Shown piece by piece: positions 3,813-30,308 of a stretch of DNA of 64,000 nucleotides (the first letter of the stretch is position 1; each line of letters opens with the position of its first letter). The position numbers and the translations under genes are program-made. The stretch is from NCBI RefSeq assembly GCF_000504205.1, contig NZ_AZAJ01000001.1, forward strand, positions 3,074,879-3,138,878, given 5' to 3'. Below the pieces are notes generated by a model. It did no database searches. It was not told the origin of the DNA and was given only the letters and a program-made list of their open reading frames with translations. Origin of the DNA: Methanolobus tindarius DSM 2278. GTDB taxonomy: Archaea; Halobacteriota; Methanosarcinia; Methanosarcinales; Methanosarcinaceae.

Positions 3813-4985
3813 TCAGATAACGTATGCTTTCAAAGGTGGTAAGCCGTTAAAAGCAATGGAACTATAACTCTGTGTATAAGCTCCGGTGGTGAATATGTAA
3901 AGTCTTTCATTCTCGTGAAGACTTTCAGGGAAAACATATTTGTGATCTTCGTAGAGAATATCCATGCTGTCACATGTAGGACCTGCAAGAATTACTTCTT
4001 CTTCACATCCCTCACTTTCTGAGTATATAGGGTATTTTATGCATTCATCAAGTGTTTCAATTAATCCGCCAAACTTTCCTATGTCCAGATATACCCAATG
4101 GTACTGGTTCAGTTTTGCTTTCTTTGAAATCATTATGATTTCTGTTACAATAACACCTGCGTCAGCGACCAGGGATCTGCCAGGCTCTATTATAATCTCC
4201 GGATGTTCCTCACCAAAATCTTCCTGTATAAATCGAAGTATTTCATGTGCATAGGTTTCAAGTTCGTTAGCTGGGGACATATATTTTGCAGGAAAACCGC
4301 CACCCAGGTTTATCATTTTAAGCTTAATACCCTGAAGTGACACAGCTTCAAAGAGGTATTTACATTTTGAAAGAGCGTTGTCCCATTGTCCGATATCACG
4401 TTGCTGTGAACCTACGTGAAAAGAAAGACCATATGGTTCAAGTCCATTTTCATGTGCTTCAAGTATAAGCTCATAAATAACATCAGGGTGAGCTCCGAAT
4501 TTTCTTGATAATGGCCAGTCTGCACCATCGCTTTCAGTAAGCAGACGGAAGAATACACGTGATCCGGGAGCATTTTTGATTATCTTATGAAGGTCACTCT
4601 GTGAATCTGTTGCAAACATCCTGATGCCTTTCTGATATGCATATGCAATATCTTTTTCCTTTTTTATTGTGTTACCATAACTGATCCTTTCCGGTGCAAC
4701 ACCAAGCCTGAGAAGCTGATCAATCTCATAAACAGTTGCAGCATCGAAGTTGGATCCTTTATCCCTTAGGACTGAAATAATCTCATCCATAGGATTTGCC
4801 TTTACTGCATAATGTATTTTAACATAAGGCATGTTCCTTACAAGTTCATCATACATTTTTTCAACTTTAGACAGGTCTACAACAAGAAATGGAGTCTCCT
4901 TATCTTCAGAAAACTCTTTAACCTTTTTAAAGTCGGCCTCTGATGTGAATTCACTCAGAGGAAATTCATATTGCACTTTTCTCAT
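3813..4985 (-). CDS. PLP-dependent ornithine/lysine-type decarboxylase
   Basis: Alanine-racemase-fold (type III) amino-acid decarboxylase of 390 residues, the usual length. PLP lysine Lys62 lies in HYAVKANP. The glycine loop is GGGFPAKY. The ornithine decarboxylase signature GPTCDSMD (Cys338) supplies the active-site Cys and Asp from the second subunit. It should decarboxylate ornithine or lysine to a diamine for polyamine synthesis. The CDS signature favours ODC/LDC over diaminopimelate decarboxylase, but the exact substrate is inferred. The start ATG is preceded by AAGGAGTAG. It stands alone, convergent with the gene to its left. Confidence 0.85.
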   Translation of the reverse strand: MRKVQYEFPLSEFTSEADFKKVKEFSEDKETPFLVVDLSKVEKMYDELVRNMPYVKIHYAVKANPMDEIISVLRDKGSNFDAATVYEIDQLLRLGVAPERISYGNTIKKEKDIAYAYQKGIRMFATDSQSDLHKIIKNAPGSRVFFRLLTESDGADWPLSRKFGAHPDVIYELILEAHENGLEPYGLSFHVGSQQRDIGQWDNALSKCKYLFEAVSLQGIKLKMINLGGGFPAKYMSPANELETYAHEILRFIQEDFGEEHPEIIIEPGRSLVADAGVIVTEIIMISKKAKLNQYHWVYLDIGKFGGLIETLDECIKYPIYSESEGCEEEVILAGPTCDSMDILYEDHKYVFPESLHENERLYIFTTGAYTQSYSSIAFNGLPPLKAYVI

Positions 4986-23180: not shown

Positions 23181-23504
23181 TTAACAGCCTGAAGATGATG
23201 GCCTGGCTTCAAGAGCTGTTCGAATCATGTCCTCATATTCTTCCTTTAAAGAATAAACTATTGGAGTCTTGTAAGACTCTTTATGAGATCTGAGTACGCC
23301 TAGCTTGGAATAAATGTAGCCTACCATGGATGCCACTGCACTGCGTGAAATATCGTACTTTTCAGTGATATTTGCATGCAGCTCATCTACTGTTGTCTCT
23401 TTTACACTTAAGAAAATTGATAGTATATGACTGCGTAGTCCATTTACATCCAATTCGATGAACTTCTGCAATCTTCGTTTTATTTTTGCGCGAATTGAGT
23501 CCAT
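23181..23504 (-). CDS. DUF2551-like small winged-helix protein
   Basis: 107 residues with the pattern of methanogen DUF2551 proteins: a basic N-terminal helix (IKRRLQKFIELDVNGLRSHI), then FLSVKETTVDELHANI, then a recognition-like SRSAVASMVGYIYSKLGVL segment. It is probably DNA-binding and regulatory, targets unknown. A TATA-like AATATATATAG stretch lies just upstream of the start. Confidence 0.65.
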   Translation of the reverse strand: MDSIRAKIKRRLQKFIELDVNGLRSHILSIFLSVKETTVDELHANITEKYDISRSAVASMVGYIYSKLGVLRSHKESYKTPIVYSLKEEYEDMIRTALEARPSSSGC

Positions 23505-23661
23505 TACTTCACCTCATATATAGCACAAACTTTTATATGTGTTTCAATCTATATATATGTTTTTAAATTTTTATCGTATGAAGCCAATATTAAGTAATCA
23601 AAAGTAAAAGGACTAATACGATAAATGCATTATTCAAAATCTCAATTTTTCCGGTGACCAT

Positions 23662-24111
23662 ATGAATATAAAATACGATTTGGAAAACAACGTAATGCAG
23701 ATCGATGATATAGACTTATATCCCGAAAATCTTGACACTAACTTTATAGGAATATGCAATTCCTGCAATTCAGATGTCATCAGTCTCAGTTATCATGACC
23801 ATGATAATGGAATGGTAGTTGCGGGTAAATGTACTGAATGCGATTTGCTTTATGCGATTTTTTACGATAATCTGTGGAACTGGCAGGGAGAAGAACCAAT
23901 TGTACAGTTCTTTGATATCGATAACAGTAACAGTATCAAATTCCTTGACAGTATCGATAGAAAAAAACTTGAAACCATTTTTACTCCTGCAGAAACAACA
24001 GCAATGTATGCAAAAGCAAGAGGAGAAAAATATGTCAGACAGTATCTGTATCGTGCCAGGAAAAAATATAATGATTTCTATGAGTTATTTGGAATACAGA
24101 TCAACATATAA
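23662..24111 (+). CDS. zinc-ribbon protein of unknown function
   Basis: 149 residues. CNSC (about residues 32-35) and CTEC (about 57-60) form a four-Cys zinc-ribbon-like site. The rest is acidic with an Arg/Lys/Tyr-rich C-terminal helix region (YVRQYLYRARKKYNDF). The start ATG follows GGTGACCAT. No family is recognised. It is the last convincing gene before the 5-kb gene-free stretch. Confidence 0.6.
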   Translation: MNIKYDLENNVMQIDDIDLYPENLDTNFIGICNSCNSDVISLSYHDHDNGMVVAGKCTECDLLYAIFYDNLWNWQGEEPIVQFFDIDNSNSIKFLDSIDRKKLETIFTPAETTAMYAKARGEKYVRQYLYRARKKYNDFYELFGIQINI

Positions 24112-24458
24112 AAGTTTGTTATATGCCCATTATTGTAAAAGAGTATATTATCAAAAAAAACATAACACTTACTAATAAAAATTAACATTTAATATTATTT
24201 ATTTTATAAGTACATAATAAAATAAAGCTATTTTTATATAACTACATGTCTTTCTAATTTGCTAGAGGTTTTAAATAGAAAACATACAGAAAAAACTACA
24301 TGATTTTTTTTTAGATAAATTTACTATTTTTATTAATTGTCATACACATTATAATTAATTTATATCTGTAAACAGACACTTAAATCTCAAGTTATATCAA
24401 TCAGAGTAACAAAATAGACAATAATTATAAATATCAACATTTGCATATGTGCAAATAG

Positions 24459-24546
24459 TGAGGGAATAAATATAATCCATTTTCCTGGTAGAGCTATGTA
24501 ACACCCACTAACCATCTATATTGTACCACCATTGTTTGTTCCCTCA
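24459..24546 (+). ncRNA. array element 1
   Basis: Arms 24459-24472 and 24533-24546 pair over 14 bp (two G.U). The 60-nt loop is A/C-rich and contains CCCACTAACC and GTACCACC. TATAAATA at 24426-24433 lies about 33 bp before the stem, consistent with its own promoter. Confidence 0.45.
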
Positions 24547-24736
24547 TATCCACCAAACATTTAATTTTGATATGCAGCACCAGTTCGTATATTAAGATCC
24601 ATAGTTTTCTTATTGAATAGAACTAATTAAAAATGTATAAGAATTATACTAATAAACAAAAATAGCTCAATAAAATTATAAATAGTATTGCATTGAAAGT
24701 AACTGTTGCATAGTGTAGGAGTGAATAGTCCTCCTT

Positions 24737-24796
24737 AGGCCTGTAAGGATAACCACTAACTGCCTAACCTAACCCTAACATGTTCTTATCAGGCCT
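24737..24796 (+). ncRNA. array element 2
   Basis: Arms 24737-24749 and 24783-24796 pair over 13 bp with one bulged T (24789). The loop contains ACCACTAAC and ACCCTAACA. CCTCCTT (24730-24736), identical to the anti-Shine-Dalgarno core, abuts the stem. TTATAAATAG lies at 24676-24685, and a T-rich tail follows. Confidence 0.5.
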
Positions 24797-24986
24797 TTAT
24801 TTATTATATTACAAATTTTACTGTGCCTGCACCACTATATTCTAATTGTAAACAGGGACAAATCTGGTTCAACTATTAAATCAATAACCTTAATTTTACA
24901 ATTAAACTAACTTAGTCCGATTGAACTTATATATAGAATTAGCTTGAAACATAAAAAGAGAGTTGGAGTCTTCTGCTGATCCTCCT

Positions 24987-25045
24987 TGTTCTGATAAGAA
25001 AAACTCATTACGCACCACCGCCAATCATATATTCTTATCAGAGCA
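24987..25045 (+). ncRNA. array element 3
   Basis: A 14-bp stem (24987-25000 with 25032-25045, one G.U) has core CTGATAAG/CTTATCAG. The 31-nt loop contains GCACCACCGCC. CCTCCTT (24981-24987) adjoins the stem. TATA TTATATATAG lies at 24927-24936. The tail is TTTATTTTTT. Confidence 0.5.
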
Positions 25046-25209
25046 TTTATTTTTTAAACATACTTCTCTTTCTTTTTCGATGAAAATACAATATATTATG
25101 TATATTCAACAAATAAGTTGAGATAATTATATATAATATAAAATACAGAGTAACAGTTGCACATAAATACCAGATGATTATAAAAATGTTCAGAAACTGT
25201 GCCTCCTGT

Positions 25210-25264
25210 TGCCTGATAAGCATCAAGTACCAAACAATAACCCTAACACACCCCTTATCAGGCA
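25210..25264 (+). ncRNA. array element 4
   Basis: A perfect 11-bp stem TGCCTGATAAG/CTTATCAGGCA. The 33-nt loop has ACCCTAACACACC. CCTCCT lies at 25202-25207 just before the stem, with TATAAAAA about 30 bp upstream. The tail is CCTTTCTTTTT. Confidence 0.5.
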
Positions 25265-25312
25265 CCTTTCTTTTTACAGAAACAGGTATTTATGACAATC
25301 CGGATAATGTTT

Positions 25313-25370
25313 GTTGCCTGATAAGCCTGAATCCAACTAACCTGTCAAACCACATCCTTTATCAGGCAAC
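25313..25370 (+). ncRNA. array element 5
   Basis: A 13-bp stem (25313-25325 with 25358-25370, last pair G.U) nearly repeats the arm of element 4. The loop has CCAACTAACC and AAACCACATCC. Only 48 bp separate it from element 4, with no TATA box, so the two are probably one transcript. Confidence 0.45.
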
Positions 25371-25484
25371 TTATTTCAATTGATTTGAATTTAACATTAT
25401 GTAATATAATTAACTAAAATTAGTTGAATAAACTTATAAATAGGAGTATTCACACTGTGAACATGCTCAGGAAGGTAAAACAGA

Positions 25485-25557
25485 GATTGTCTGATAAGCA
25501 AACCACATCCTGGCAAAATCAACCAACCAACCCTAACATGCCACTTATCAGACAATC
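25485..25557 (+). ncRNA. array element 6
   Basis: A perfect 14-bp stem GATTGTCTGATAAG/CTTATCAGACAATC. The 45-nt loop contains AACCACATCC and AACCAACCCTAACA, sharing words with elements 2, 4 and 5. The promoter is CTTATAAATAG at 25433-25443. Confidence 0.5.
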
Positions 25558-25641
25558 ATATCTTAATTATCACTATTAGAATTTTAGTTTCAGAACTTTC
25601 TTTCCTACTACAATAAATATACTACTGACATAAACCTTTTT

Positions 25642-25715
25642 AGTAGATAGGCCGTATATCGCACCAACTGAAACATAATCATTTTTAAATGATCATATGT
25701 TAGGTCCTGTCTACT
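25642..25715 (+). ncRNA. array element 7
   Basis: Arms 25642-25653 and 25703-25715 pair over 12 bp with one bulged T (25705), the same design as element 2. The loop begins GTATATCGCACCAACTG and contains an inner hairpin ATCATTT/AAATGAT. It is less regular than its neighbours. Confidence 0.35.
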
Positions 25716-25850
25716 TTCTCATTAACAGATAACTAATTTTTAAGGAAATCTAACCTATCATATTTGCTAGATTGTACAAATAATCCCCTTATCAATAATT
25801 CTAAACATAGATTCCTGCTGCCATAAATATTTTGAAAATATAATTTCTAT

Positions 25851-25921
25851 TAACCATTAGGCATTAGTGGTTACCTTATGGGGCATTACCCAGTTACCCA
25901 AACTTTTCTGCCCCGTAAGGT
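25851..25921 (+). ncRNA. array element 8 (two-hairpin type)
   Basis: A small hairpin TAACCA/TGGTTA (25851-25873) leads into a 13-bp stem (25873-25885 with 25909-25921) of ACCTTATGGGGCA type with one G.U. The 23-nt loop has TTACCCAGTTACCC. The T-rich tail is TTTTCTTC. Confidence 0.4.
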
Positions 25922-26048
25922 TTTCTTCAATTCTTGATGCCTTCAAAAGCCAAATAATAATTTTGTTCTGAAACATTGCTTCTTAGAATTTAATAAGAAA
26001 TAGAACATACAGCAGGAAGTCACATTGCTCAGCAGTGACATTTAACAG

Positions 26049-26114
26049 ATTGGTGGGGGTTTACCAATTGCCTTATGAAGACATGACAGTAACCCAATAA
26101 TTGTTTCATAAGGC
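26049..26114 (+). ncRNA. array element 9 (two-hairpin type)
   Basis: Hairpin ATTGGT/ACCAAT (26049-26068) is directly followed by an 11-bp stem GCCTTATGAAG (26070-26080) with 26104-26114. The loop contains AGTAACCCAATAA. Same layout as elements 8 and 12. Confidence 0.4.
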
Positions 26115-26345
26115 TATCATTTTACTATGATGCCTTGTTTATTTTCCTATTAGCTTGTGACCCTCAATTTATTGTCAAAAGCAGGGGCTTTATTGTCAGA
26201 AGATTCCAGACATTGTTACTGAACCGTTAAATCAGATACATACATTTAATTAAGTAACTCAGTTTCTTTTAGTTTTATCTCTGTGAAGCGATATAAATGA
26301 AACTAACGCTTCCTTTTAAACTTTGATGCCAGCCGGAAGCGACGA

Positions 26346-26377
26346 GGTGGTGTCATTTGGGCCTCAAAAACACCACC
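26346..26377 (+). repeat. hairpin hiding a CACCACC motif
   Basis: GGTGGTGT (26346-26353) pairs perfectly with ACACCACC (26370-26377) around a 16-nt loop. Here the ACCACC word that is single-stranded in other elements is sealed in a stem. Confidence 0.35.
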
Positions 26378-26483
26378 ATTGGAATCTTGATTTGTGGTAA
26401 ATGCCGTGCAACATAAATCAATTTGGTAACGTACGGGCAGTATTTACATAAATTAAGTGGGGAGTATAATTTAGCCCGGTTTA

Positions 26484-26528
26484 CTGATGAGGATATAACT
26501 CGTACCACCAATATAATATCCTTATCAG
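26484..26528 (+). ncRNA. array element 11
   Basis: A 13-bp stem CTGATGAGGATAT with 26516-26528 (one G.U). The 19-nt loop contains GTACCACCAATATA. A GTATAATTTAG TATA-like box lies just upstream, and CTCTTTTCTTT follows. Confidence 0.45.
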
Positions 26529-26695
26529 CTCTTTTCTTTATCTTAATATTAGTTAATTTCCTTTTGACATTTGCATCCAGAAAGATGCCGGTGGATAAAT
26601 AACAAAAAATGCTCTGAAACTAAGATTCCTACAAGATTAAATAGAAGAGAAATAATTTTTTATTAACCACAAATGTCTATGCAAAATATGTAAGG

Positions 26696-26766
26696 GTTAG
26701 TGGTATCTTATGGGGCAAAACAGTACCCAATTGTTGTAATTCCTCATCCTGCCCCATAAGACTAAC
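26696..26766 (+). ncRNA. array element 12 (two-hairpin type)
   Basis: A perfect 12-bp stem TCTTATGGGGCA (26706-26717) with 26750-26761, extended across a 5-nt internal loop by GTTAG/CTAAC (26696-26700 with 26762-26766). ACCAC near 26675 can pair with the GTGGT at the stem base, as in elements 8 and 9. Confidence 0.45.
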
Positions 26767-27047
26767 ATGTTATTGAAAACTGCTATTTATTATATTTAAA
26801 TTTGCAGCTTTCACTGAATTTAAAGCCATATTTTCAATGTCGGTCATAAGTTCCCTCCTCTCACATGATCAAAAATGGATTAAATAAAAGACTGTTAGAT
26901 AGTTTTAATCATTAAAAATATAGCTTTTTTATCAATATCTGCAACCATCTGCAATATACCTATCAACATAATAGTCCGTAGTTTAATGATACTTGATATT
27001 ATTATATTTAAGAAGTATACGTTTGGTTGATCTTTTAGAGAGGGAAT

Positions 27048-27098
27048 TTGGACTAATAGAGTCCTGCATGAGAGTAAACCTAAATCCTATTAGTCCAA
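27048..27098 (+). ncRNA. array element 13
   Basis: A perfect 12-bp stem TTGGACTAATAG/CTATTAGTCCAA. The loop is 27 nt. The 5' arm can instead fold locally (GGACT 27050-27054 with AGTCC 27060-27064), so two mutually exclusive structures exist. Confidence 0.4.
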
Positions 27099-27426
27099 TG
27101 CAGTTCATGCATAATTAATTTTTATAGCCATTTTCATCATTCAAATTTTCTTATTTTAGGATTTCTATACGATTAGCTGAAAGCCCAAAGAAGGATTCAG
27201 ATAATTATAACACCGCTATTGTTGCCAATAATCCAAAAATATGGCTATAAGATACTGTCTACATGTAAATGTAAAAATTACGGATGACATCCTAGATTCA
27301 AAAGCAATACATTATTTATTAAAATAAAAACGAGGGTCCGACTTTATCTAGTCAAACTTAAATATTAACACAACAATTTGTGTATTCGTATATACCAAAC
27401 ATACAAATTAAAGAAGTGAGAAGAAT

Positions 27427-27498
27427 ATGCTACTTGGCGGCAGCATAGCCTTTTTTGAAGCACTAGGTTTTGTTTGTATGTTGTCCCCCGAACACTGA
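27427..27498 (+). CDS. possible 23-residue hydrophobic peptide
   Basis: ATG 27427 is preceded by GTGAG and a TATATA box at about 27389. The peptide is mostly hydrophobic (MLLGGSIAFFEALGFVCMLS). Its stop codon lies inside a 10-bp hairpin GAACACTGAT/ATCAGTGTTC (27490-27513). It could be a micro-protein with its terminator, a leader peptide or chance. Confidence 0.3.
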   Translation: MLLGGSIAFFEALGFVCMLSPEH

Positions 27499-28251
27499 TT
27501 TATATCAGTGTTCATCATCCTACTCTCATCCGAATTTTTAATTTGATAACTGGTATTTTAACTTACAATATTTACATATCAATGAATCAGTGTGGTATAA
27601 GTTAGGAACTTTAGAAAGTAAGGTAAAATCCTGCGAAAACTTCAAAGTTTCTCCAAAAAACTAAGATGTAACTATATTTTGTTACATCTATTCTATTCTT
27701 TAGTGAATATTGCAATGTAACAATATTCTGTTACACATATAATTTAGGATTGTGACAAATTTTTTAATACATTGACATAGATATATAAAATTACACTTAA
27801 TTAATTGTTGATTTCGTACCCACACGAACAAAAACGCGATTTTTGGCCAATTTTGGGGATTTAGTGAACAAAATCCCAGAATTATAATTATTTGAGTGGC
27901 AAGATATTACTTTCAGTTATAATCTGGCAAAGTTACTAACTAAATTATAGAAGTTGAGAGAAATTAGTGTTTACTTCAGATTAAAATTAATAGAGTCCGA
28001 TTATCTTCATCATAATTTTAACTAAGTTAGATTACAGTTAAGTATTATTTACTATGTTTGAACTCTGCAAAACCAAATTTATTATGCTATTTTTATTTAA
28101 TATTTTTTGATACGTTTACTCTAGAGTCACAGCACCTAAAATACCAATCTAAAATTTGCGCGGATTTTCTGAACAAGTCCTAAAAATGAGCTTTACTTTC
28201 TAGTAAAAGTTTCAAAGTCTAAGCTGTGATTCAGGTGATCCTAACAAAATA

Positions 28252-28445
28252 AATCCATATTCCTATAGTATATAGGATTGAAAATGGCATTTTCTGAAAA
28301 TGGCCAAAAAGGGTATGTTTTTCTGAAACTGGCCATTCCATAGTATGTATGAATACAGGGGTTCCAAACTCCAACCCCTCCATTATCTACACAAAAGTAT
28401 CTGGAAAAATACTAGCCATTTTAATTCAATCCATATTCTTATAGT
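28252..28445. repeat. degenerate short repeats
   Basis: AATCCATATTCYTATAGT occurs at 28252-28269 and 28428-28445. TTTTCTGAAAMTGGCC occurs at 28290-28305 and 28319-28334. TCCTATA/TATAGGA is a near-perfect palindrome inside the first copy. It may be the remains of an element; no transposase is present. Confidence 0.35.
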
Positions 28446-29129
28446 GTTTGTAATTTCTGGACGTTGTAGAAATATTATATAGAAAACAAGAAAAACGTTA
28501 CCAATACAGCCATTCATGCAATTACCACTATAGCAAGCATAACGATAAAATGGATTTGCATTCAAAATGCATTCAAAATTAATAGAAACTCAATATAATA
28601 GATAAATAGAACAAAATATGCAAAACCAGAAACTAATTGATATTATTTATAACGTATATGTTTTTTAAAATAATCAAACATACATCACATTTTTTCTTTC
28701 ATTTTGTACAAAATAAATTAGTATGTAGTATTTAATTAAGAATATATTTATAATATACTTTTTGTAACTTATAGTCTACACTAAACAAGCTACAAGATAA
28801 TAAATAAAAATATTGCAATAAATATAGAACTTAACAATTATTTATTAGTTACTAGAAAAATAAAAATTGTTTTACAAATTTTATTTTAACAGATAGTGTA
28901 AAGTATATAATTTGGTACATACTTTTAAATTAGTTGTAATTGTTGTCATTTTATTTTATTATTTAAACATGTATACTTTAGTATATAGATTGATATCTAA
29001 TGTAACATCATACAAAGTACTGTAAATCCAATTACAAATACATCCCATATAAAGAAAACCAAAATAATCTTTTTCAAAACTTAAAACTAAATAACATGCC
29101 AATGATCAGTAAATCCGTGAAAGAAGCCT

Positions 29130-30308
29130 ATGACAAAACAACGTTTTTTTATTTACTCAACTGTGTTTCTCATAATGGGTTTATCGAATTCCGTTATCCC
29201 TGTATTACCTGAGATTGCTACTGCTTCATCGGTGGAATCAGGCACCATTAAATACACTTTACTTTTTTCCGGCTATTTTATCGGAGCATTGTTAACCCTG
29301 ATACCTTTTGGATTTTTAGCAGACAGGTATGAACATCTGAAGATAATCATTTTTGCTATTTCCCTTACAGCAATTTCCGGCACAATCCTTACTGTAACCA
29401 ACAACATCCATATAATGATACTAGCAAGAATACTTGAAGGCAGCGCATGTGGTGCATTTTTCCCAGCAGCATATGCAATGCTTGCCGAATATCAGAAAAA
29501 AAATCAATATCTGGGAGAATTCAATTTTCTCCTTAATGCCGGACTTGCAGCTGGTGCCGTAGCTGCAGGATTTCTGGCAGAGGAATTCATTAAAGGAGCA
29601 ATTATACTTTTCACCCTGCTTTCGTTAATAGTGTTTATTTTTGGCATTATTAAAACAAGTTCACTCCAAAACAAGAACAAGAATAATAACAATGATAAAA
29701 ATAATTTAATCCTGAAAACAAAAGAAAAAACACATTCAAACACCACATTTTTGATTGAAATTAAAAAGATTCTCAATATAGCATTCAATCCATTATTTAT
29801 CAGAACATGGATAATTGCATTTTTTATTTTTGGAATCACCGGAGTAATGCTTGCCTATTACCCACAATACAGTAGCGGAATGCTCAGCAAACCGGAACTT
29901 GGCATAGTGATAGCTACAGTATATATTAGCTCAATGACCACCAACCTCATTGCAGGAAGGTCAAGCATTAAGTTCAGAAAAATGATCAACATAGGCATAA
30001 TACTTGCTGCTGCAGGCGTCATAATCTCAATTACACAACCCCTTCCAGGTTTTACGCTTCTTGGCATAGGATCGGGAATGGCAATGATAGGTTTACCAAT
30101 AGCAGTTTCCTGTATGAATATCAGTAAAAAGGACAAAGGACTGAGCATGGGAATCTTCACAACATTTACATACATGGGACTTGCATTCCTACCCATGATA
30201 ATGGGCTACTTTACAAAATACGGATATCTTGCAATGTTTGCAGGAACTTCATTGCTTATGGTTCTTACACTTTTACTGAAAGACAGTAGTAAAAATAATA
30301 CCAGTTAA
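29130..30308 (+). CDS. MFS transporter, 12-helix type
   Basis: 392 residues with about 12 membrane helices and the MFS motif A at FGFLADRYEHLK between helices 2 and 3. The central cytoplasmic loop is extremely Asn/Lys-rich (about residues 176-200). It resembles DHA1-type drug or metabolite efflux proteins, but the substrate is not predictable. It follows the gene-poor region. The next gene starts 60 bp downstream on the same strand. Confidence 0.85.
   Translation: MTKQRFFIYSTVFLIMGLSNSVIPVLPEIATASSVESGTIKYTLLFSGYFIGALLTLIPFGFLADRYEHLKIIIFAISLTAISGTILTVTNNIHIMILARILEGSACGAFFPAAYAMLAEYQKKNQYLGEFNFLLNAGLAAGAVAAGFLAEEFIKGAIILFTLLSLIVFIFGIIKTSSLQNKNKNNNNDKNNLILKTKEKTHSNTTFLIEIKKILNIAFNPLFIRTWIIAFFIFGITGVMLAYYPQYSSGMLSKPELGIVIATVYISSMTTNLIAGRSSIKFRKMINIGIILAAAGVIISITQPLPGFTLLGIGSGMAMIGLPIAVSCMNISKKDKGLSMGIFTTFTYMGLAFLPMIMGYFTKYGYLAMFAGTSLLMVLTLLLKDSSKNNTS

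Follow-up and report, generated by a model that had tools for sequence, protein, structure and literature searches.

The window analysed here is a 64,000-nt stretch of Methanolobus tindarius DSM 2278 that corresponds to positions 3,074,879-3,138,878 of a 3,151,883-bp single-contig genome. Between its positions 24455 and 27098 it contains twelve long-stem hairpins with A/C-rich loops together with one larger three-stem RNA (E10), that is, about 13 candidate small RNA (sRNA) units, termed E1 to E13. It is almost certain that the structured RNAs of this island are under selection. Its units, candidate sRNA genes lined up in tandem, are siblings that arose by duplication, and they are probably transcribed and act in trans as antisense sRNAs. 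Taken as a whole, we read the locus as a genus-specific tandem island of sibling sRNAs whose loops would serve as antisense seeds, E1 and E11 being directed against the ribosome-binding sites (RBSs) of surface-protein mRNAs; we assign to this reading a probability of roughly 0.6.

A stretch of 5 kb devoid of genes extends from the gene of a 149-aa protein (23662-24111) to a gene for a major facilitator superfamily (MFS) transporter (29130-30308), and the array occupies the left half of this gap. An initial annotation of this DNA had described a tandem array of about a dozen long stems with A/C-rich loops in gene-free DNA, and the description holds: 12 stems are present, most of them of at least 10 bp and perfect or with a single G.U pair, the loops are poor in G, and GC skew across the array is strongly negative. 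For counting, a strict core was defined as at least 8 consecutive pairs, with at most one G.U and at least 3 G-C pairs, enclosing a loop of 12-75 nt with less than 20% G. At a score of at least 22, the segment 24440-27140 contains 10 strict cores, compared with a mean of 0.3 and a maximum of 2 in 60 dinucleotide shuffles; at scores 25 and 28, the counts are 8 vs 0.03 and 7 vs 0. A 400-kb sample of the same genome was the source both of the hairpin background and of the initiation regions considered below. Scanned on both strands, it yields 0.34, 0.07 and 0.003 strict cores per 2.7 kb of one strand at scores 22, 25 and 28, respectively, and its single comparable hairpin (locus L114, 16483-16539) has a loop, ACACCCACTCCCACACAAACCC, of the same style. 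When folded singly, most elements, not all, are stabler than their shuffles (z down to -5.8).

To test covariation, the arms of 29 distinct elements were aligned, with the loops removed and the register set by a shared word. Two-sided changes occur in 9 of the 11 stem pairs (43 cells vs 11.9 when shuffled), and 92.8% of the cells are paired, compared with 80.5% in the shuffle control, which is inflated by shared descent, and with 24-41% in the controls with slid partners, which retain descent. The covariation-like evidence of a selected RNA structure reported initially is thereby confirmed. The arm word CTGATAAG/CTTATCAG, in this form or a variant one, recurs in about half of the elements, so that, besides covarying, the elements are duplicates that have diverged. 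The initial annotation had noted arm sequences that differ between elements and had argued against copied DNA; both statements need amending, since the elements are copies that share arm words, although the arms do covary and the copies have diverged while pairing was kept.

Transcription signals were evaluated on 47 elements from the window and nine loci. Over the 14 nt that follow the stem, the T content reaches 0.51, compared with 0.34 before the stem and 0.34+-0.02 at random gap positions (0 of 2000), and TATA-like boxes are located 20-110 nt upstream of 45% of the elements, against 18+-6% in the control (0 of 1000). The TTATAAATAG-type boxes of E1, E2 and E6 hold fixed positions in orthologues. 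T-rich tails and TATA-like boxes, both pointed out before, are therefore real for the set as a whole, while they are not clear for each element. As the tail signal is confined to one strand, RNA is favoured over a DNA-level palindrome.

When the array was compared by BLAST with 60 relatives, homologues were found in six genomes including its own, all of them Methanolobus, the foreign matches having 71-85% identity. Hairpin and nhmmer scans identified syntenic gaps with related hairpins in G001, G025, G007, G005, G010, G022, G017, G024 and G015 and, more weakly, in G002 and G004; in a second Methanolobus clade (G003, G006, G008, G013, G016, G021 and G026) the gap is present and the scans detected no such hairpins. 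Covariance model R2, built from 25 hairpins, gave strong matches only in Methanolobus, almost all of them at the array locus. Model R1, built on E1, matched nine Methanolobus genomes, a search that rests mainly on sequence because RNAalifold is unable to hold the A-B-A'-B' stem order described below for E1 relatives and R1 kept 4 pairs only. Among the genomes searched, neither model had a credible match in other genera, and G026 gave a marginal model match only. The covariance search that had been recommended thus retrieved homologues, credible in Methanolobus only. Comparison with Rfam 15 gave only a tRNA in the window and, for 23500-29100, two chance matches far below cut-off (E<=5), in agreement with the earlier remark that no named family has this layout.

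Orthologous elements are 94% identical in their arms, 88% in their loops, 80% in the 50 nt upstream and 57% in the downstream spacer. By this profile, the islands of conservation span from TATA box to T-rich tail and are gene-unit-like. Loop words are unlike among siblings, yet each is conserved across orthologues, and the order of orthologous elements is kept between species. Could the hairpins be DNA-level elements, such as palindromic binding or recombination sites, MITE-like (miniature inverted-repeat transposable element) or attC-like arrays, or an origin or segregation region? Tandem palindromes within gene-free DNA, with a few members at other loci, would be compatible with this. We nevertheless consider it very improbable, given that A/C-rich loops and T-rich tails are on one strand only, that the stems covary while loops are almost as conserved as arms, that orthologous order is maintained, and that no mobile genes are found among the neighbours examined. 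Two further candidates were rejected: a CRISPR array, because the repeats are short, diverged and irregularly spaced, and a mobile palindrome of MITE or repetitive extragenic palindromic (REP) type, as own-genome searches found no close copies elsewhere.

Conservation, covariation and strand-specific tails are what identifies RNA units; transcription is the part that we infer. Each unit would have its own TATA promoter and a short leader, in many cases containing a small hairpin; after it, a long stable stem would present the A/C-rich loop, itself unstructured, and transcription would stop at a U-rich end. Leader hairpins ahead of the long stem, present in some units, would also be expected of leader/attenuator or riboswitch elements of unannotated small open reading frames. 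This is the least probable of the alternatives considered: there is no conserved reading frame, leader and loop indels between orthologues are not multiples of three, and the units, closed by T-rich tails, have no following gene.

Being unstructured, G-poor and conserved in sequence, the loops look like either base-pairing seeds or protein sites. As protein sites, they would make the elements CsrB-like titration RNAs or parts of a dedicated ribonucleoprotein, perhaps for the neighbouring 149-aa protein, whose conserved tail is basic. ACC-rich words recur in many loops and the neighbour gene is conserved and syntenic; but loop words that differ between siblings and are each conserved in orthologues are unlike repeated protein sites, the neighbour gene is also present in species without hairpins, and its product has no RNA-binding fold match. 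We regard this possibility as unlikely and favour loops that act as antisense seeds. Through the loop word ACCACCA, E1, E11 and, less surely, E3 would pair with UGGUGGUAC, which lies at the RBS of transcripts encoding surface proteins, namely S-layer, PEF-CTERM and further secreted proteins. The exact complementarity, the location of the sites and the class of the genes suggest that pairing of E1 and E11 would block ribosome entry, and the remaining siblings presumably act likewise on other mRNAs. In archaea, masking of RBSs is known for sRNA154 and sRNA41 of M. mazei (PMC5867862).

The near-invariant loop word GTACCACCA of E1 and E11, whose counterpart in E3 is GCACCACC, is complementary to TGGTGGTAC. 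Complementarity of the E1/E11 loops to target sites extends over 9-12 nt: the most frequent target form, TGGTGGTACAAT(G), agrees with the E1 core ATTGTACCACCA along 12 nt that span the RBS and reach the start codon. In the genome of the window, TGGTGGTAC is found at 36 sites, two of which are the array itself, and 7 of 32 others examined are located 1-5 nt before a start codon. The seven genes code for an S-layer protein (PF07752), three PEF-CTERM proteins, a NosD/PKD protein, a PQQ beta-propeller and BioY, with signal peptides in six of the seven products. The leader of one PEF-CTERM gene has UGGUGGUACAAUG. In the 400-kb sample, which is unbiased, the RBS word TGGTGGT is carried by 6 of the 58 genes for secreted proteins and by 2 of the 301 remaining genes (p = 3e-4), and GGAGG in the RBS is not enriched among secreted-protein genes; of four proteins with PEF-CTERM-like ends in this sample, three have GGTGGT within the RBS and the fourth TGGTGGGG.

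A scan of the loops against the initiation regions of the 400-kb sample and the window brought out a single clear signal, that of the loop word shared by E1 and E11. Complements of at least 9 nt to the E1 and E11 loops number 4 in initiation regions of secreted-protein genes, against 0.82 for shuffled loops (p 0.02), and 6 against 1.2 in secreted- and membrane-protein genes together (p 0.0075); in cytosolic genes there is no excess (3 vs 2.05). A conserved single-stranded seed complementary to mRNA initiation regions was found in this way for E1/E11 and not for other loops. The pattern TGGTGGTACN0-6ATG has 186 matches in 27 Methanolobus genomes, a few of them being the sRNA loops themselves read backwards, compared with 70 for the reversed control. 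In 23 other genomes the figures are 65 and 30, and one of 30 matches examined outside the genus is a secreted-protein gene start. Within the other array-bearing Methanolobus, all 12 clear gene starts with a TGGTGGTAC RBS, chosen by spacer and hence not at random, encode secreted proteins, and across the genus 17 of 19 scanned proteins with this RBS carry a PEF-CTERM domain. Judging from complementarity and gene class, we lean towards surface-protein mRNAs being real targets of E1 and E11; the initial annotation had put forward no function for the array.

Several points weigh against this reading. For the nine other loops, complements at initiation regions are no more frequent than expected, and all loops pooled give a weak signal (p 0.09). 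The TACCAACC loops of relatives, compared with GGTTGGTA RBSs, are not enriched over control. Methanolobus genomes without detected E1/E11 also have the TGGTGGTAC RBS in front of genes for secreted proteins, the majority of them PEF-CTERM (6 of 9 gene starts, again picked by spacer), so that the word may owe its presence to something else or may pair with a different RNA. For such genomes, either other ACCACC-loop RNAs exist or the RBS word arose first for another reason; an off-locus RNA with an ACCACC loop was seen in G024 (L108). By itself, TGGTGGTAC can serve as a variant Shine-Dalgarno sequence, and PEF-CTERM genes may have inherited it from a common ancestor. Moreover, simple rules were used to call gene starts and signal peptides, and, with several motifs tried, single p-values of 0.01-0.02 are weak alone.

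From these points a plausible, less probable alternative emerges, in which the sRNA island is real, the sRNAs act on other mRNAs, and the match of the E1/E11 loops to surface-gene RBSs reflects coincidence or the common descent of a Shine-Dalgarno variant, GGTGGT. This variant is compatible with the anti-Shine-Dalgarno sequence of 16S rRNA, and both the RBS word in genomes without detected E1/E11 and the lack of such targets for other loops agree with this alternative. It accounts poorly for a complement reaching a length that shuffled loops seldom attain, and for a site nearly limited to surface genes that do not resemble one another in sequence (S-layer, NosD, PQQ and PEF-CTERM). We therefore retain the reading in which E1 and E11 would act on surface-protein mRNAs.

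Two further ideas on pairing did not succeed. Pairing of G-rich leaders with their own loops does not exceed that of swapped pairs (median p 0.65 and 0.83) and is clear for E1 only, and the CCCTAACA loops of E2, E4 and E6 have 11 complementary sites outside the array, which is no enrichment. As a lead only, the start of a HAMP-domain sensor gene at L276 (position 2507745 of the own genome), TGTTAGGGTGAAAACATGTTAGGG, holds two complements of AACCCTAACATG, the loop word of E2/E4/E6.

All the elements are encoded on the + strand. Candidate sRNA E1 (24437-24569) has a predicted TATA box, TTATAAATAT, at 24425-24434, the position of which is kept in orthologues while the flanks diverge. Its outer stem GTGAGGGAAT../..GTTCCCTCAT (24455-24549) encloses an A/C-rich loop with GTACCACCA (24523-24531); orthologues are present in 8 other genomes, and the fold has a z of -3.3. 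E1 relatives depart from the layout of a stem with its loop given in the initial annotation: their stems GAGGGAA/TTCCCTC (A) and CCTGATAG/CTATCAGG (B) overlap in the order A-B-A'-B', which is a pseudoknot or two alternative folds. Between species, E1 has compensatory changes in 7 pairs, one in stem A and six in stem B; the window copy retains stem A and has lost B'. E10 also departs from that layout. It is a larger three-stem RNA at about 26265-26475, formed by CGCTTCC/GGAAGCG, GGTGGTGT/ACACCACC (26346-26377) and CTTGATTTGTGG/CATAAATTAAG (26386-26457), conserved in 4 species and with two-sided changes at 3 pairs.

Candidate sRNAs E2 (24699-24806) and E6 (25462-25570) have the D2 repeat in common, and for both the TATA box TTATAAATAG is predicted (24676-24685, in a 6-species alignment, and 25434-25443). 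E2 consists of a leader hairpin AGGAG../CTCCT, a long stem AGGCCTGTAAGGATA/TGTTCTTATCAGGCCT, a loop with AACCCTAACATG, 85-97% identical in 5 species, and a T-rich tail. In E6, a perfect 14-bp stem, GATTGTCTGATAAG/CTTATCAGACAATC (25485-25557), carries a 45-nt loop with ACCAACCAACCCTAACATG (fold z -3.7), and relatives show a two-sided change of U-A to C-G. Candidate sRNA E3 (24955-25056; fold z -3.4) has the stem TGTTCTGATAAGAA/TTCTTATCAGAGCA (24987-25045), a loop with GCACCACC and a T-rich tail. Found in 5 species, candidate sRNA E4 (25155-25278) has a leader stem GCACA../TGTGC, the stem TGCCTGATAAG/CTTATCAGGCA (25210-25264), a loop with AACCCTAACA and the tail CTTTCTTTTT. E5 (25313-25370; GTTGCCTGATAAG../..TTTATCAGGCAAC) and E7 (25642-25715; AGTAGATAGG../..CCTGTCTACT; fold z -3.8) are hairpins.

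Candidate sRNA E8 (25845-25930; 4 species; fold z -5.8) combines the leader hairpin AACCATTA/TAGTGGTT with the stem ACCTTATGGGGCA/TGCCCCGTAAGGT (25873-25921) and the loop TTACCCAGTTACCC, and E9 (26048-26114) the leader hairpin ATTGGT/ACCAAT with the stem GCCTTATGAA/TTCATAAGGC (26070-26114). Candidate sRNA E11 (26445-26541), present in 4 species, has the stem CTGATGAGGATAT/ATATCCTTATCAG (26484-26528), a loop with CGTACCACCA and the tail CTCTTTTCTTT. E12 (26685-26770) forms the stem TCTTATGGGGCA/TGCCCCATAAGA (26706-26761) with loop AGTACCCAATTG, and E13 (27030-27102) the stem TTGGACTAATAG/CTATTAGTCCAA (27048-27098), which is conserved between orthologues while its loop is 59% conserved.

Multi-hairpin relatives are present at four additional loci in G004, G022 and G025. 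At L104 (5340-5680, minus strand), L025 (5880-7140, oriented to the window), L028 and L027 there is a larger RNA, about 240 nt long and made up of four hairpins. Its hairpins are H1 with loop TGGGGAGTGG, H2 (ATATTGATCATATAAC/GTTATATGATCAATAT) with loop GGTGGTACGG, H3 with stem CTGATAGAGG and loop CCAACCAACC, and H4 with stem GTTGCCTTATG; three paralogues lie in the array of M. vulcani PL 12/M and one at another locus. Hairpins with CCACTCCCAC loops occur at L105 (4973-5038), L106 (about 4440-4500) and L114 (16483-16539, corresponding to 826483-826539 of the own genome), those of L105 and L106 also having CCCCACTCCCC. These CCACTCCCAC loops are the complement of the GGGGAGTGG loop in the larger RNAs, and the hairpins may be sponge or partner RNAs. 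Beside secondary sRNA loci, L103 (about 4525-4560) and L105 (5885-5936) share GGGATATAGTTATCTCCAAAAAACCGAACTT, an inverted repeat in L105, which may be a small mobile element.

A gene-free gap of about 1.7-5 kb lies downstream of the 149-aa gene in most Methanolobus genomes. This left-hand neighbour (23662-24111, + strand) is syntenic with the array and encodes CxxC..CxxC and, in its tail, an invariant basic RQYLYRARKK motif. The gene was found in 22 of 27 Methanolobus genomes, including species without the array; carriers include Methanolobus vulcani, M. profundi, M. psychrotolerans and one Methanolobus metagenome-assembled genome. The protein matches no known family and its AlphaFold2 model (pLDDT 82) no PDB fold; with neither match, its candidacy as an RNA-binding protein was rejected. 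The MFS transporter gene (29130-30308, + strand) bounds the gap on the right. Right of the array, at 27380-27515, there is a conserved unit made of a C-rich stretch (CCCCC) and, after it, a perfect terminator-like hairpin, GAACACTGATTTATATCAGTGTTC; similar units are located at L080 (3453), L084 (2942) and L086 (2108 and 3118; oriented), the C-rich stretch of relatives being GTACCACCCCCAAACCCCC. A conserved noncoding stretch at 28280-28400, GGGTATGTTTTTCTGAAA..ATTCCATAGTATGTATGAATACA, recurs in the L084 and L086 gaps, away from hairpins.

The LhrC sRNAs of Listeria use single-stranded loops as seeds, which are CU-rich. LhrC1-5 of Listeria monocytogenes are multicopy siblings that function in the context of envelope stress and regulate the mRNA of the surface protein LapB (PMC4132741). 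Like LhrC, the array consists of several homologous sRNA genes in tandem, here as sequence elements, and a similar block of surface-protein translation is what complementarity and gene class suggest for it. LhrC is bacterial and its siblings share targets, whereas the array is archaeal and its loops differ; the likeness is one of description. The Neisseria siblings NgncR_162/163 act post-transcriptionally on metabolic targets (PMC9973317); they are bacterial and two in number, the array being archaeal and larger. In M. mazei, an anti-RBS sequence is found in one of the two loops of sRNA154, and sRNA41 masks RBSs, both being archaeal intergenic sRNAs (PMC5867862). They are single genes, for nitrogen and ACDS control, whereas the Methanolobus elements form an array; models R1 and R2 matched no other Methanosarcinaceae genus among those searched, and sRNA154 and sRNA41 are set apart by description only. 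Closest in taxonomy, Methanolobus psychrophilus R15 has, according to a dRNA-seq study, a cold-induced set of nine conserved sRNAs and 43 intergenic regions with at least two sRNAs, that is, clustered intergenic sRNAs in the same genus as the array (PMC5378194). The family described here is outside Rfam. It resembles sibling sRNAs known elsewhere and differs from them in being archaeal, larger and restricted to one genus, with no relatives detected.

Archaeal sRNAs are numerous, and very few have known targets; we know of no tandem sibling sRNA array in Archaea. More speculatively, the Methanolobus surface might be under an RNA code, in which a growing island of sibling sRNAs, told apart by their individual loop words, would face an S-layer and archaeosortase-sorted PEF-CTERM regulon with the matching RBS word, while multi-hairpin RNAs with GGGGAGTGG/GGTGGTACGG loops and the complementary CCACTCCCAC..CCCCACTCCCC hairpin would operate as sRNA-against-sRNA sponges; we put this forward as a tentative idea. 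The locus brings together in one place a conserved family of about 13 genes with a concrete predicted target set. It gives a first hint that PEF-CTERM and S-layer proteins may be co-regulated through a shared RBS word and matching sRNA loops, and the different numbers of siblings kept by Methanolobus species provide a natural experiment.

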